Part shown: positions 18,464-25,292 of the stretch, piece by piece
Layout: the number at the start of each line of letters is the position of its first letter
How positions within the stretch are numbered: position 1 is the stretch's first letter
DNA from: Archaeoglobaceae archaeon
GTDB lineage: Archaea > Halobacteriota > Archaeoglobi > Archaeoglobales > Archaeoglobaceae
Direction: 5' to 3'
NCBI GenBank assembly: GCA_027028145.1
Contig: JALVJV010000023.1
Span: 1-64,000, forward strand
DNA length: 64,000 bases
Position numbers and translations under genes: made by a program
Notes under the pieces: model-generated
What the model was told of the DNA's origin: nothing
What the model saw: the letters and a program-made list of their open reading frames with translations, nothing else
The model's database searches: none

Positions 18464-18754
18464 ATGGAATATAATTACTACTGTGAAATAAGAATAATAG
18501 ATAAAATAAAATGCAAAAAAAGAAATAGAGTTCAGATTATCTTTGAAATTCTCGAGAATTTGTATAGAAGAAGTATGAGTTCATCAGAGTTAATCAGAAG
18601 AGTAAACTTAAACTTCGATCTTGGTAAAAAGATAATTTCATTATTGGAAGAGCAGTGTTTAGTTAAAAAGGTGGAAAGGCGTATTGAGATTACAGAAGAA
18701 GGTGTCAGAATTCTAAATTACTTAAGAGAACTGAAAAAAATGACAATAATTTAG
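18464..18754 (+). CDS. winged helix-turn-helix regulator, HTH_45/ArnR-like
   Basis: A 96-residue protein. After a short N-terminal strand (CEIRIIDKI) it has a winged-helix core: helix IFEILENLYRRSMSSSELIRRV, recognition helix GKKIISLLEEQCLV, wing KKVERRIEITEEG and a last helix. This pattern matches small archaeal transcription regulators. It is AT-rich and very Lys/Ile-rich. Its location just before the fibre operon, with a second small helix-turn-helix gene facing it, makes it a candidate regulator of that operon. Confidence 0.65.
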   Translation: MEYNYYCEIRIIDKIKCKKRNRVQIIFEILENLYRRSMSSSELIRRVNLNFDLGKKIISLLEEQCLVKKVERRIEITEEGVRILNYLRELKKMTII

Positions 18755-18984
18755 ATATTATTTATAATTTTTCCTAACTTTCCAAGCTTTACACGATTGT
18801 TATCAATTATAAATATTTCAATTGGCGAGATCATACTAAATAATAAATTATTAAGAACATACGCTGGCATGTTTAACATGGTTGCTAATTCTTCGATCGT
18901 GTATTCTTTTTCTTTAATTAAATCTACTATTTCATCTATAATTTCGTATATATCCATCATTATCATTTCGATCATAATTGTCAT
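18751..18984 (-). CDS. small helix-turn-helix protein
   Basis: The 77-residue frame starts at an ATG at 18984; internal ATG codons at 18960 or 18957 (MMDIYEIIDE) are plausible starts. The core IIDEIVDLIKEKEYTIEELATMLNMPAYVLNNLLFSM looks like a helix-turn-helix, followed by a short wing IFIIDNNRVKLGKLG. It overlaps the end of the convergent winged-helix gene by four bases and its start faces the fibre operon promoter, so it may be a divergent regulator. Confidence 0.5.
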   Translation of the reverse strand: MTIMIEMIMMDIYEIIDEIVDLIKEKEYTIEELATMLNMPAYVLNNLLFSMISPIEIFIIDNNRVKLGKLGKIINNI

Positions 18985-19054
18985 AATAATTTTTTGGATG
19001 ATTTATGAGTATTTTTGATGAGTATTTTTGTTAATCACATAACTTTCTGATTGA

Positions 19055-19066
19055 TTTTTATATATT
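19055..19066 (+). promoter_or_regulatory. TATA box of the fibre operon
   Basis: TTTTTATATATT is the clearest TATA element in this AT-rich region. It lies about 50 bases before the ATG at 19111, leaving a leader of some 20 bases that contains the ribosome site GGGGGGAAGG. Confidence 0.6.
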
Positions 19067-19110
19067 GACAATTTTAGATGTTAACAGCAGTTGGAGTTGG
19101 GGGGAAGGAT

Positions 19111-19608
19111 ATGAAGAAGTTTGGGGCGATATTTGTAACATTGCTGTTTGGATTGCTGGTAGCTGCGGCAACATATGCCTACTGGAGCCAGACACTGACG
19201 ATAAGTGGCACCGTGGGCACGGGTGTTCTCGACGCAAACATAACGGCAGCAACAACCGGTGACAACGAAAACGTCTATGATGTGGGTGCAATTAACTACG
19301 TAATAGCTCCGGACATGAAATCAGCGACGATCACGATCACGAATGCTTATCCGGGTTACGTAGCTTGGGCGAACTTCTCAATAGTGAACACTGGAACGAT
19401 TCCGGTTAAGTTGTCGGATACTGTGGACAATCCGAACACTGAAATAGCCGTTAGCACATCATGGACTGGCCTTGACAGCAACGGCGTCCTGCTTCCGGGT
19501 CAGACGGCTTACCTGAATGTTACCACCACCGTCACAGATCTGGCTGCCCAGAACTCGACATACACGTTCACAGTTACCATAAACGTCAACCAATTCAACG
19601 CACCTTAA
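19111..19608 (+). CDS. TasA/camelysin-like secreted fibre subunit (archaeal bundling-pilin type)
   Basis: The ATG at 19111, preceded by GGGGGGAAGG, gives 165 residues. A short signal span (KFGAIFVTLLFGLLVAAATYA) is followed by YWSQTLTISGTVGTGVLDAN, matching the N-terminal plan of the TasA/CalY family (Y/F-S-D..., SGN...AGTLDL). The rest is a jelly-roll-like beta domain with Thr/Asn-rich strands, ending NVNQFNAP. TasA makes biofilm fibres in Bacillus, and archaeal relatives form bundling pili by donor-strand exchange. Such proteins need a SipW-type signal peptidase, and one is encoded three genes on. The TasA match is from sequence pattern and context. Confidence 0.7.
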   Translation: MKKFGAIFVTLLFGLLVAAATYAYWSQTLTISGTVGTGVLDANITAATTGDNENVYDVGAINYVIAPDMKSATITITNAYPGYVAWANFSIVNTGTIPVKLSDTVDNPNTEIAVSTSWTGLDSNGVLLPGQTAYLNVTTTVTDLAAQNSTYTFTVTINVNQFNAP

Positions 19609-19659
19609 TTAACTTCAACTCTATTACCATTTTATTTTTTTGTTTTGGGGTGAAACTAT

Positions 19660-20466
19660 ATGAAGAAAGCCATAATGTTACTACCGATCGCAGTGATGGT
19701 CTTAAGTATCACATATTCTGGATTCTCATCTACGGTGGGTATAGGTAATGTTGACAAGCCAAACATTGTTCAAACCGGAACGATGGATTGGAAGCTGTAT
19801 CTACCGTCTGAGCTGGATTGGATAAATGCCCCTGATATTGCCGACTTCGCATTTTATGGCAGTTACAACTATGCCATAGTTACAACATCCAACAATGTAA
19901 GTATAATTCCATTAGAGCCCCCTGAAAGCATAGATGTAGGTAATGCAAGCATATCGAAGAATGGAGACACAGTATCCATAACACTAAAAAATGTCTACCC
20001 TGGATACGGTGCCGTGGCTCATTTCGTATATGTAAATGAAGGTTCCATCCCATCAAAGTTGAGTGACGTCAACATAACAATAAACGATCCATACAACATT
20101 GCTAAAGATGTAAGAGCGGCAATGATTATAGTTTGGAGTCCTACGGGTGACTTTACTACTACTCCAGTATATGAAGCATCAATCGTTGGCTGTAACCTCA
20201 CAGATATACCGAGATTCATCAAAAAGGTATTGAGCAATGTAGTTTTTCAGCCCGGCGGGTGGGTGGCTTTCTGTAAACCGAATAACGCCACCATAAAAAT
20301 AACCGATGTCGAAATAAATCCAAACTCTGGACTACCACAATACTTAATCGATTATCTGAACAACACTGACAGTTTCTGGATAGTAATCAAACCCGACTCG
20401 AAACCACCACAAGGTGCATATCTAAGCTTTAACCTCACGTTGACGTTCGGGCAGTTTAATGAATAA
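19660..20466 (+). CDS. second TasA-like secreted protein, longer
   Basis: The 268-residue protein has a signal span (AIMLLPIAVMVLSITYSGFSS) and then a beta-rich, Asn/Thr/Pro-rich domain. Parallel phrases link it to the preceding gene: SISKNGDTVSITLKNVYPGYG against SATITITNAYPGYV, SIPSKLSD against TIPVKLSD, and the end LTLTFGQFNE against VTINVNQFNA. It is therefore a diverged paralogue with an insertion of about 100 residues. It may be a minor, tip or anchoring subunit of the same fibre. RBS GGGGTGA precedes ATG 19660. Confidence 0.65.
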   Translation: MKKAIMLLPIAVMVLSITYSGFSSTVGIGNVDKPNIVQTGTMDWKLYLPSELDWINAPDIADFAFYGSYNYAIVTTSNNVSIIPLEPPESIDVGNASISKNGDTVSITLKNVYPGYGAVAHFVYVNEGSIPSKLSDVNITINDPYNIAKDVRAAMIIVWSPTGDFTTTPVYEASIVGCNLTDIPRFIKKVLSNVVFQPGGWVAFCKPNNATIKITDVEINPNSGLPQYLIDYLNNTDSFWIVIKPDSKPPQGAYLSFNLTLTFGQFNE

Positions 20467-20498
20467 ATTTTTAAATTTTTTAGGCTCCTAAATTTTTG

Positions 20499-21629
20499 AT
20501 GGATGTATTGATATTGATTGGACTTCTGGTAGTATCTAACTCTCTGCTCATAATCGCTCCTATAAACGGGTTCTACCTTCAGATCATTCTCAACTTCTTC
20601 ATCTTCTGCTTATCCATGTTCTTCGCAAGAAGAAGAGGTTATAATATATGTAAAAAGTTATTTAGGATGAAGACTTTCGGTAACGCAATAAAATTTGCTG
20701 TATATATCGGTATTTTCTACGTAATTCTGATGATTTCAGCCGGTTTTATCATGGGATTCGGTAAAAGCCCTTACTCCCATACGCCCCTTGGCATGCTGAT
20801 TAACGTATTATACATCTCATCGTTCGTTTTGAGCTTCGAATTTTCAAGAGCTTACATTCTCAGAAGGATTAAAAGATCGTGGGTGATACCGGCTGTGGCA
20901 TTAATTTACACCGTTATATTCTTAACACCAACACTCAAATTCCTACCTAAAGGCAAACTTGAGATTTTGAGATACATAGGTTCCAAGGCTATACCCACTC
21001 TTTCTCAGCAATTCTTTGCAACCCTTCTTGCTTATTACTCCGGTGCCTATGCATCTTCGACGTATTTCGGTATAATGATGGGCTTTGAATGGTTATCTCC
21101 AATACTACCGAAACTCGATTGGATGGTTAAATCGTTCATAAGGGCATTGGTTCCGACAATAGGCTATGCAATAATGTCGAGTGAGGTTTCGGTTAAGCAT
21201 GTTAAAGTCAGGAAGGAAGAAGACATAAAATCTTGGATTGCTACATTTGTTGCGTGCGTTCTTTTAATTTTATTCTTTACTGGAAAGCTCGGTTATCATC
21301 CAGCAGTAGTGGGTAGCGGTAGCATGACGCCCACTATATGCACGGGGGACATAGTAATCGTAAAAAAGGTTAAACCATCCGAAATCCATGTCGGTGATAT
21401 CGTGCAGTATTACTCTGGCAAAGGATATACAATAACCCACAGGGTAATAAAAATAGAAGAAACTCCAAACGGTCTGATTTTTATAACAAAAGGCGATGCA
21501 AACAACGTTCCAGATAAACCTTTTAAGGCGGATAGAATAATCGGAAAGGTCGTATTTGTGATACCCAAAATCGGGTGGATACCGCTCATGGTGAGAGATT
21601 TTATAAGACACATCATAGGAGGTGGTTGA
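20499..21629 (+). CDS. signal peptidase I (SipW/Sec11 type) with large N-terminal membrane domain
   Basis: The C-terminal 120 residues are an S26B signal peptidase: GSGSMTPTI with the catalytic serine (about Ser275), ITHRV with the general-base histidine (about His314) and KGDANNVPD with the acidic residue. Before it lie about 240 residues with seven or so hydrophobic spans, which ordinary Sec11/SipW proteins lack. The ATG at 20499 is preferred to a TTG one codon earlier. Bacterial SipW is dedicated to TasA-class substrates. The gene order here suggests the same role, with the extra membrane part perhaps adding assembly or export functions. Confidence 0.8.
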   Translation: MDVLILIGLLVVSNSLLIIAPINGFYLQIILNFFIFCLSMFFARRRGYNICKKLFRMKTFGNAIKFAVYIGIFYVILMISAGFIMGFGKSPYSHTPLGMLINVLYISSFVLSFEFSRAYILRRIKRSWVIPAVALIYTVIFLTPTLKFLPKGKLEILRYIGSKAIPTLSQQFFATLLAYYSGAYASSTYFGIMMGFEWLSPILPKLDWMVKSFIRALVPTIGYAIMSSEVSVKHVKVRKEEDIKSWIATFVACVLLILFFTGKLGYHPAVVGSGSMTPTICTGDIVIVKKVKPSEIHVGDIVQYYSGKGYTITHRVIKIEETPNGLIFITKGDANNVPDKPFKADRIIGKVVFVIPKIGWIPLMVRDFIRHIIGGG

Positions 21630-22559
21630 TTGGAGATTGAGAGGAAGAAGTATTACGGAATCGTCGTAGCACTTTTAATGATATCTCTGCTACTTGCCGC
21701 CTACTCCGTCACTATAAACGTTAAAGCGAAAAGGGAGATCGTTGTTAACAGGTATACCCTAACAGACTATCTTGATTATTATGTTTATTTAAAACCAAAT
21801 TTTTTATTTAATAAAACTATATTAAAAGATTCCACAATATATATTAATATAACGAAGAATATTGTTGTTAGATATATGTTTTTCTCTAAGTCTTCTGGCA
21901 GTGTTGATGGTATATATAAGGTAATAGCTGAGATTAAAACGAAGGAGTGGAACAAGACAATTGTAATTATACCTGAAAGAGAGTTCAAAAATTCTTATAT
22001 TTTGAATTTCCCAATAGATGTATACTATTTTAGAAGTATATACAACAGAATAAACAATGAGCTCGGTTTTAAGGGAACAAATCCTGAGGTGGTTATATCC
22101 ATAAAAACTTACGTAAGAGGTAGAAATTTCTCAGATACGTTCTTACATACCCTCAGCTTTCCCCTCCTTTCGAAAGCTTTTAAGATTTCGACAAAACATA
22201 AAACATCGAAGGTAAGGACATTGAAAAAGATAGTTTACGTTGTTGATGAAGGTAAGAATTCAATGAAGATTGCAACGGGAATTTTGTCCGTCCTGTCTTT
22301 CTTGGCTGTCGGTATATTTTGCTGGAGAGTTAAGCCCATAAAGATAGAAAAGGATTTGGCTACAATTATGTATGAAAGAAATAAGGATTTTATAATACTC
22401 GGAAAACTTGAAATTAAGGACTCCACAGTTGTTACAGTTAATAGCTTTGATGATTTACTTAAAACGGCAGAAATATTAAATAAACCAATAATAAAAGATG
22501 GGAAGAGGTTTGGATTGATCGACGGACATACTGTTTATGTTTTCGAGTTTAAGGGATAA
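21630..22559 (+). CDS. DUF5305-like membrane protein
   Basis: A TTG start follows GGAGGTGGTTGA, which includes the stop of the signal peptidase gene, so translation is coupled. The 309 residues have an N-terminal span (IVVALLMISLLLAAYSVTI), an extracytoplasmic beta-rich part of about 190 residues, a second span (ATGILSVLSFLAVGIFCWRV) and a cytoplasmic tail of about 75 residues. This plan and the location after a signal peptidase are those of archaeal DUF5305 proteins. The function is unknown; a role in secretion or anchoring of the fibre proteins is inferred from the operon. Confidence 0.65.
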   Translation: MEIERKKYYGIVVALLMISLLLAAYSVTINVKAKREIVVNRYTLTDYLDYYVYLKPNFLFNKTILKDSTIYINITKNIVVRYMFFSKSSGSVDGIYKVIAEIKTKEWNKTIVIIPEREFKNSYILNFPIDVYYFRSIYNRINNELGFKGTNPEVVISIKTYVRGRNFSDTFLHTLSFPLLSKAFKISTKHKTSKVRTLKKIVYVVDEGKNSMKIATGILSVLSFLAVGIFCWRVKPIKIEKDLATIMYERNKDFIILGKLEIKDSTVVTVNSFDDLLKTAEILNKPIIKDGKRFGLIDGHTVYVFEFKG

Positions 22560-22560
22560 A

Positions 22561-25167
22561 TCACCATCTCTTGACTCCCCATTTCCAGTAGACATATAGG
22601 TTAAGGATGTCCTTCAAATCCAATTTGCCATCCGGCCAGAAGTCGTAGTATTTCTTATACTGCTGGAACTTTGGATCCTTAAAGTGCCACTGGAAGTAAT
22701 TTATATCGTTGATGTCAAATTTTCCGTCGCCGTTTATATCTTCATATAACCCATCGCCATCCAAATCTTTCGACATTGGAGGACCATGCTCACCGACGCA
22801 AACTTTCTTTGTTACGCTTGATGATACATTAGTGTCATCAACGACCGTCAAAGTTACGTTGTATTTTCCATATTTCTTATACGTATGCGTCACTTTGCAC
22901 CCCGTAGTTTTGCTTCCGTCTCCGAAGTTCCAGTAGCATTTAACTTTTCCGTTATCTGGATCGTAACCCGCAAATGTAAACGTTACGTTTTTACCGGAAA
23001 CTGTGTATTTGAAGTCTGCTATTGGAGCATAACTTGTCGTGAAATTCCAAGTTCTGGATTTAACCTCTCCGAAATCTCCCTTAACGATTACAAACCACTT
23101 GTAAGTGGTTCCCGGTTTGAGGTTGTTCCATGTTATACTGCCGTTGTTCGAAGTTCCTATTAGCCTTCCCCCTCCACTGTAAAATTCGACAGTATAGTTT
23201 TTAGCACTCTCAACCTTAACCCTCAGAGTGGGTGAAAGATGAACATTTGTCGCTCCGTTTGGAGGATATACCAGCGTTATATTTATAGCAACACCACATA
23301 CGTGGATTATGAAAGTTCCTTCGGTGCTTGCGCCCTTATCGTCAGATACGACGAACTTAACCGTGTAATTACCCGGCTTCTGTGGTATCCAGTAGAATGT
23401 AAAGTTCGTTAGCTTTGCACCTTCCGGCAGTTCCAAGGGCTTACAAGTTATGCTGTCTCCATCGGGATCGCTTGCATTTATGTGAACGATAACCTTTTCT
23501 CCAACCTTTGCGTATATTTCGCCTATCTTTTCAACCGTTGGCGGATGATTTGGCAAGGGTTCGGCGTAGAAATCATACCAAACCTCTGTTCTTCTATCCG
23601 AAATTTTAATGAGATACTTTCCATATTTCTTCGGTTTAAACACATAGTCACCGCTAACTTGCTTTCTTTCAATTAGTGGCACAGTTATCTGGGAGAGCTC
23701 AAAGACTTTAACCGTAACATTTTCGTTGAACCTTATGCGAACTGCTCCTTCATAGAAAGGATACGTATAGTATCTGCGCTCGTAATTGCTGAACACTGTA
23801 ACATTCTTTTCGGGTTTGCTTAATATCTCGACCTTCAATGAACTCGGCTTTCCGCTTTCAAGCTTAGGTAACTTCAGCGTGGGATCTCCAAGCAGAACCG
23901 TTTGAAGGAATACCTGATATATCCACTTGCCTCTCTTATCTTTCGGATTTACTGGTTTAAGGTTATACTTCTCCGAGTAATACGTTAAAGCATCCTTGAA
24001 AGCTTCACCGAGCGTGTTAACTTTGCCTATGTCCTCAAGAATTCTCGATGTTATAACGTGCATGTAATCGAAGTTTGTGAACTTCACGAAACCGTTATCT
24101 ATCTCGAACTGTCCATCTATAGTAGTACTCCTAGTCGACGCTATTGATGCTATGGCTCCGGCTTTTATGGTAAGCAGGTATTCGGCGAATGACTTATCTT
24201 TAGGTGGATACCATGTCCATAGGTTCGGGGCAAGTTCGGTATCGTAAGCTGCAACTTCGCAACCCTCAGATATGAATATCGGAAGTATAGAGTCCTTTTT
24301 TTTCAGTAGACTACTGTCCCTTTTAGTATATATCGGCCCCTTGATCACGATTCCATCCGCTGTAGCATGTTGACTGTGAAATACAATTCCGTATCCACCC
24401 GAAAATGCCTTATTGAATATACTTCTAATGATGTCCTTTGAATATCCGTCACTCTCCATAATTATGGTCGAGTTAAACTTGGAAGTTACGTTCTTCCACA
24501 TCAAATCGGCTACGCTTAACTCGCCTTGCCAGACTTCGACATCATCTATAGCCTTATAATCCGTTCTCCCGGGACACGCTTCGATCTTACCACCGTAGAA
24601 GATAGCCCTCCTAAATTTGTCGATGCTGAAGTTTGCATAGTAATCCTTTAGCTTGTCAATGTATATTTTAGCTTCCTCTGCATTATTGACGGGAATCCTT
24701 CCGACTGCAAAATCCGGTTTCATGTCATAGTCTGGAGATGCATAGAAGAAGTCAGTGGGTGTTTCCGTGACCCCTGCGAATAGCTTATAATCGAAGTAGT
24801 AGCTCGGTGGAATGATCTTTGCATCTCCGAATAGTGTTACATATTCAGCATTTCCAATCTGAGTTCTCAGAAATGCTATTATTTTTTTAGCAAGTATGTA
24901 GTTGTATCCTTTTATATCCTTTAGCGTTTCATTTGCGCAACCGTAAATCGGTGGATCGTTGGCTGGAGTATAATTCTTCCATATTTCTCCGATTGTTACG
25001 ATCTCTGATGATATTCCCATGGACTTATGAAGTGACGATAATTCCTCCGCATACGGCTTTAGATCGTTAGAAGTTATTATTATTTCGTCGATCGCCGTTG
25101 CAATTCCACAGATCATAATTATTATCATTGCCACTCCAAATAAACATCCGAACTTGCCTATTTTCAT
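22561..25167 (-). CDS. secreted gingipain-like (C25) cysteine peptidase with Ig-like, PKD and dockerin modules
   Basis: ATG 25167 follows GGAGGTGA by five bases; signal peptide at about 1-25. The catalytic part (to about 440) has YVTLFGDAKIIPPSYYFD, DFAVGRIPV, a histidine in VFHSQHA (264 or 267) and a cysteine in ISEGCEVAAYD (303), the order of the gingipain His-Cys dyad. After it come a cadherin/He-PIG-like module (NHPPTVEKIGEI), a fibronectin-like module, a PKD domain (WNFGDGSKTTG) and a C-terminal dockerin with two EF-hand-like loops (DLDGDGLYEDINGDGKFDI; FWPDGKLDLKDI). It ends two bases from the fibre operon, convergently. A cohesin partner is not in the window. Confidence 0.75.
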   Translation of the reverse strand: MKIGKFGCLFGVAMIIIMICGIATAIDEIIITSNDLKPYAEELSSLHKSMGISSEIVTIGEIWKNYTPANDPPIYGCANETLKDIKGYNYILAKKIIAFLRTQIGNAEYVTLFGDAKIIPPSYYFDYKLFAGVTETPTDFFYASPDYDMKPDFAVGRIPVNNAEEAKIYIDKLKDYYANFSIDKFRRAIFYGGKIEACPGRTDYKAIDDVEVWQGELSVADLMWKNVTSKFNSTIIMESDGYSKDIIRSIFNKAFSGGYGIVFHSQHATADGIVIKGPIYTKRDSSLLKKKDSILPIFISEGCEVAAYDTELAPNLWTWYPPKDKSFAEYLLTIKAGAIASIASTRSTTIDGQFEIDNGFVKFTNFDYMHVITSRILEDIGKVNTLGEAFKDALTYYSEKYNLKPVNPKDKRGKWIYQVFLQTVLLGDPTLKLPKLESGKPSSLKVEILSKPEKNVTVFSNYERRYYTYPFYEGAVRIRFNENVTVKVFELSQITVPLIERKQVSGDYVFKPKKYGKYLIKISDRRTEVWYDFYAEPLPNHPPTVEKIGEIYAKVGEKVIVHINASDPDGDSITCKPLELPEGAKLTNFTFYWIPQKPGNYTVKFVVSDDKGASTEGTFIIHVCGVAINITLVYPPNGATNVHLSPTLRVKVESAKNYTVEFYSGGGRLIGTSNNGSITWNNLKPGTTYKWFVIVKGDFGEVKSRTWNFTTSYAPIADFKYTVSGKNVTFTFAGYDPDNGKVKCYWNFGDGSKTTGCKVTHTYKKYGKYNVTLTVVDDTNVSSSVTKKVCVGEHGPPMSKDLDGDGLYEDINGDGKFDINDINYFQWHFKDPKFQQYKKYYDFWPDGKLDLKDILNLYVYWKWGVKRW

Positions 25168-25292
25168 ATATATCACCTCCTAAATTCTACTCATCATTAT
25201 TATTGTCATCATCCTTTTTTAGAAAATATGTATTTTGAAAAATAAAAACCTTTCGGCAGAACTCTAAAAATCACAAAAATTCTATAATAAAA

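Follow-up and report, generated by a model that had tools for sequence, protein, structure and literature searches.

Does the gene cluster at positions 18464–22559 of the window, the 64,000-nucleotide stretch of Archaeoglobaceae DNA analysed here, encode an extracellular fibre? Fibres of the TasA type have been described in Bacillus biofilms and in a handful of crenarchaea. The original prediction read this cluster as an archaeal relative of those systems, and every part that it had claimed was found: HTH1, HTH2, TasA1, TasA2, a fused signal peptidase (SP) and DUF5305 (Table 1). The assignment to the TasA/bundling-pilus kind follows from the homology, the signal peptide and the active site described below. 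On this evidence the genes of the cluster are probably (probability about 0.82) devoted to exporting and building a donor-strand-complemented extracellular fibre of the TasA/bundling-pilus (AbpA/AbpX) kind.

Table 1. Features of the locus and its convergent neighbour, in window positions.
Feature	Position	Strand	Description
HTH1	18464..18754	+	HTH_45 winged-helix; PF14947 54 bits, cut-off 25.5
HTH2	18751..18984	−	Small HTH protein, the second of the two; oriented divergently to TasA1
TATA-like promoter box of TasA1	19055..19066	+	TTTTTATATATT
TasA1	19111..19608	+	165 aa, SipW-type secreted protein; ORF 19078–19608
TasA2	19660..20466	+	268-aa paralogue of TasA1; hhalign 99%
SP	20499..21629 (start 20496/20499)	+	Fused signal peptidase; TIGR02228 98.5 bits
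DUF5305	21630..22559	+	PF17231 60.8 bits, cut-off 29; two-TM protein
C25 (gingipain-family) secreted peptidase	22561..25176	−	PF01364 167 bits; PKD, dockerin-like tail

TasA1 probably starts at the ATG at 19111, which has a ribosome-binding site, GGGGGGAAGGA, at 19099; the orthologue in G003, a genome of the same genus, begins at the equivalent residue. The signal peptide of TasA1 is of the SipW type (TIGR04088, 24.6 bits, cut-off 19). Together with the detection of TasA2 as its paralogue, which phmmer also made (3e-8), this upheld the claim of two paralogous secreted beta proteins with TasA-like N-termini. Cleavage is predicted at ATYA↓YWSQTL in TasA1 and ITYS↓GFSSTV in TasA2, and both sites have the small-x-small↓x-aromatic pattern of SipW-type processing, with an aromatic residue at P2′. 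Such a residue is poorly tolerated by bacterial LepB; TasA has one and is cut by SipW (PMC10269814). The structure model of TasA2 (pLDDT 81) resembled beta-jelly-roll proteins in a fold search, with low TM-scores, and TasA was absent among the 50 matches listed. We regard TasA1 as the probable major fibre subunit and TasA2 as probably a second one.

The relationship to solved fibre proteins was examined with profiles searched against the PDB. A profile of four orthologues, representing the TasA1 clade, matched AbpX, the solved Pyrodictium bundling pilin, at 7e-14, with an alignment that starts at the mature N-terminus, enters the core and takes in the first half of the mature chain. A broader profile (A1) matched AbpX at 3e-9 and TasA at 3e-7 (5of1) and 5e-7 (8aur), and it aligned with Bacillus TasA over most of the length of TasA. 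These matches bear out the proposed kinship with TasA and the bundling pilins. AbpX of Pyrodictium abyssi (PDB 9sj2, 9rhp) shares with TasA1 both the mature N-terminus WSxTLxxSxTxxTG and an AYPG...NxGTIP motif. The N-terminal segment of TasA1 also weakly matched the C-terminal end of the second AbpX chain, 9rhp, which looks to us like a donor-strand construct. The comparison with AbpX covered the protein chain; around its AbpX-like subunit the present locus has a paralogue, the fused signal peptidase, DUF5305 and the C25 peptidase. The AbpA bundling pili of Pyrobaculum calidifontis (Wang 2022, as cited in PMC9674648) are archaeal TasA-related donor-strand fibres; none of the chains matched in the PDB carried the name AbpA. 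The Bacillus TasA-SipW(-TapA) operon has in common with the present locus a TasA-type subunit, an ER-type signal peptidase and a cleavage site with an aromatic P2′, but the signal peptidase here carries a multi-TM N-terminal domain, and DUF5305 and C25 are absent from the Bacillus operon parts named in the literature found.

The signal peptidase corresponds to the S26B enzyme with a membrane extension that had been described from the sequence. Residues ~245–376 form an archaeal/ER-type S26 catalytic domain, in which S275, H314 and D333 are invariant in three full-length orthologues, a Ser-His-Asp arrangement that is ER-type and not Ser-Lys; GFGKSPYS and ExSR are among the other invariant motifs. 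Residues 1 to ~240 form the multi-TM domain. This domain had no match in Pfam at E ≤ 10, and searching the phylum with a profile of it brought in no further members. It occurs in 4 of 393 sampled phylum genomes, always at TasA loci, and when the fused enzyme was sought in genome contigs the G003 relative alone was found. The extension was thus, as suggested, without a match to any described family.

DUF5305, the membrane protein that had been likened to this family and belongs to it (Table 1), begins with a TTG immediately after the stop codon of the signal peptidase gene, behind GGAGGTG. Its AF2 model (pLDDT 85) has two TM helices, with a beta domain (33–204) between them and a C-terminal domain after the second; the beta domain is the best-predicted part. 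From this layout we infer that the beta domain is extracytoplasmic and the C-terminal domain cytoplasmic. A fold search of the model against the PDB gave no match at E ≤ 0.001, a search for DUF5305 in one literature library found no paper, and no described function was matched, in keeping with the suggestion that this part is undescribed. The protein was found in 67 of 295 phylum genomes and, by profile, in 28 of 55 family genomes; a signal peptidase lay in the same cluster at all 30 complete family loci read.

A survey of gene neighbourhoods in the 55 Archaeoglobaceae genomes placed the TasA-profile matches at nine loci in eight genomes. Each of these loci has a signal peptidase and eight have DUF5305, the ninth (G003) being cut by the contig end, so that the proposed linkage of the three genes held. 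Since the profile was derived from those very loci, their exclusivity is partly circular and says only that no further relatives turned up elsewhere. The gene order of the operon recurs in G003, G135 and G170, making three genera, and is therefore not due to chance. At L065 and L071 (TasA locus, G130 and G170) a secreted subtilase adjoins DUF5305 instead of C25, with PKD in L071.

The strong promoter of the original prediction is represented by a TATA-like box upstream of TasA1, and G003 has TTTTTATATTT in the equivalent position. The operon does not, as had been stated, lie between helix-turn-helix genes: both HTH1 and HTH2 are upstream, and the downstream neighbour is the convergent C25 gene. 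An HTH_45 gene was found no more than 8 kb away at 15 of 20 DUF5305/TasA loci, compared with roughly 0.1 expected per locus, a value that we estimated ourselves from 6–20 copies per genome. HTH1 is thus a probable regulator of the locus. HTH2 is HTH-like, with no family above the cut-off in the family search; its orthologue in G003 is 54% identical, and other loci gave weak matches to it.

The C25 neighbour, like the DUF1102 loci described below, is an addition to what had been noted earlier. Its gene adjoins DUF5305 convergently in all four genomes with sufficient contig (G000, the window genome, and G001, G135 and G170; three genera), and C25 genes are present in only 11 of the 55 family genomes. 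Candidates for the catalytic His and Cys come from an H..H motif and a Cys residue, both unchanged in the four orthologues, and PKD domains are present in three of the four. The tail is 68–70% identical across genera, compared with 42–47% for the catalytic domain, and is the sole dockerin match per genome at E ≤ 0.01; a cohesin partner for it was searched for and none was found.

At the remaining loci, DUF1102 proteins replace TasA. DUF1102, signal peptidase and DUF5305 occur together at L057–L059, L062–L064, L067–L069, L082–L085 and L101–L109, and in the same order at L066. These loci share the signal peptidase and DUF5305 with the present locus, often have HTH_45 or DUF7344 genes, and many of their secreted proteins have similar predicted cleavage sites; they differ in that the secreted proteins are DUF1102 and the signal peptidase has no membrane domain. 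Comparisons of the DUF1102 and TasA profiles were weak and inconsistent (hhalign 75% in one, 2% in another), and common ancestry is therefore not claimed; a search of DUF1102 against the PDB gave nothing useful. The DUF1102 loci are possibly a sister fibre system.

The divergence of the locus between G000 and G003 is uneven. By dS, TasA1 (0.16) and the start of SP (0.11) are far more alike (window 19111–20800 compared with L056) than 13 comparison genes of one other region, which gave 0.43–1.15, and TasA2 (1.31) and HTH1 (1.87) lie above that range. Such a mosaic is consistent with parts of the locus having recombined between species. Positive selection as a reading of the TasA2 divergence was rejected, as its dN/dS is about 0.17. 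A different left flank in G003 raised the idea of a mobile locus, which lost force because the protein on that side in G003 resembles one that in G002 sits roughly 4 kb from the right-hand flank of the window. The G002 region L120:1576–7042, which precedes DUF357-NfeD, does not contain the fibre locus; it encodes an RLI-like ABC protein and a secreted protein of 848 aa that begins with a caspase-like part and has a repeat region.

Taken as a fibre system, the locus would work as follows. The HTH proteins would regulate it, and TasA1, expressed from its own strong promoter, would be the major subunit, with TasA2 as a second and possibly capping or adhesive subunit. Sec would export both, and the adjacent fused signal peptidase would cleave them at their small-x-small↓x-aromatic sites; the N-terminal strand thereby released (YWSQTLTISGTVGTG in TasA1) would insert into the next subunit. 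DUF5305 may serve as membrane anchor or assembly platform, its beta domain outside and its small domain inside, and the C25 peptidase may mature, release or decorate the fibre.

This fibre reading, which agrees with the one first proposed, draws its support from the AbpX and TasA profile matches and the consistent linkage. The secreted pair could instead be non-filamentous surface or S-layer-associated proteins that share SipW-type signal peptides and are served by the signal peptidase. TIGR04088 and PF12389 do cover mainly the N-terminal signal region, and TasA2 is divergent and without a family match. However, the similarity to AbpX runs well into the mature protein and the broader profile aligns along most of TasA, which makes a non-filamentous pair unlikely. 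A better case can be made for TasA2 as an assembly chaperone or terminator and not a structural subunit, since such roles are filled in Bacillus by TapA and CapP (PMC10151520, PMC13082335), TasA2 exceeds TasA1 in both size and divergence, and its expression could be reduced by a T-rich stretch between the two genes. Its paralogy to TasA1, its own SipW-type cleavage site and the several TasA copies at other loci favour a subunit all the same, and the chaperone or terminator role is only tentatively entertained.

If DUF5305 were to sense or regulate, from the membrane, either the signal peptidase or secretion stress, this would account for the conserved C-terminal domain beyond the second TM helix, and for the fact that DUF5305 accompanies the signal peptidase even where DUF1102 takes the place of TasA. 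The family search gave it no known sensor or signalling domain, however, and its best-predicted part is the beta domain between the TM helices; such a role seems doubtful beside that of a fibre anchor. That C25 is an unrelated neighbour is suggested by its convergent position on the opposite strand and by the occurrence of C25 genes in the family away from any such locus, but is improbable given that it adjoins DUF5305 at all four visible loci with a fused signal peptidase, in three genera. Carrying the fibre reading further, one could imagine, as a speculation that we hold at well below even odds, that the signal peptidase, DUF5305 and HTH_45 constitute a general archaeal fibre machine with interchangeable TasA or DUF1102 subunits and DUF5305 as platform, that the membrane domain, gained in one lineage, couples processing to assembly, and that C25 docks on the fibre via a dockerin-like tail that can do without a cohesin.

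The locus places TasA-type fibres, at the strength given above, in the Archaeoglobaceae together with a conserved gene kit. Two undescribed parts of that kit can now be named, the membrane domain fused to the signal peptidase and the linked C25 protease. DUF5305 gains a testable role, and the DUF1102 loci are pointed to as possible sister fibre systems.
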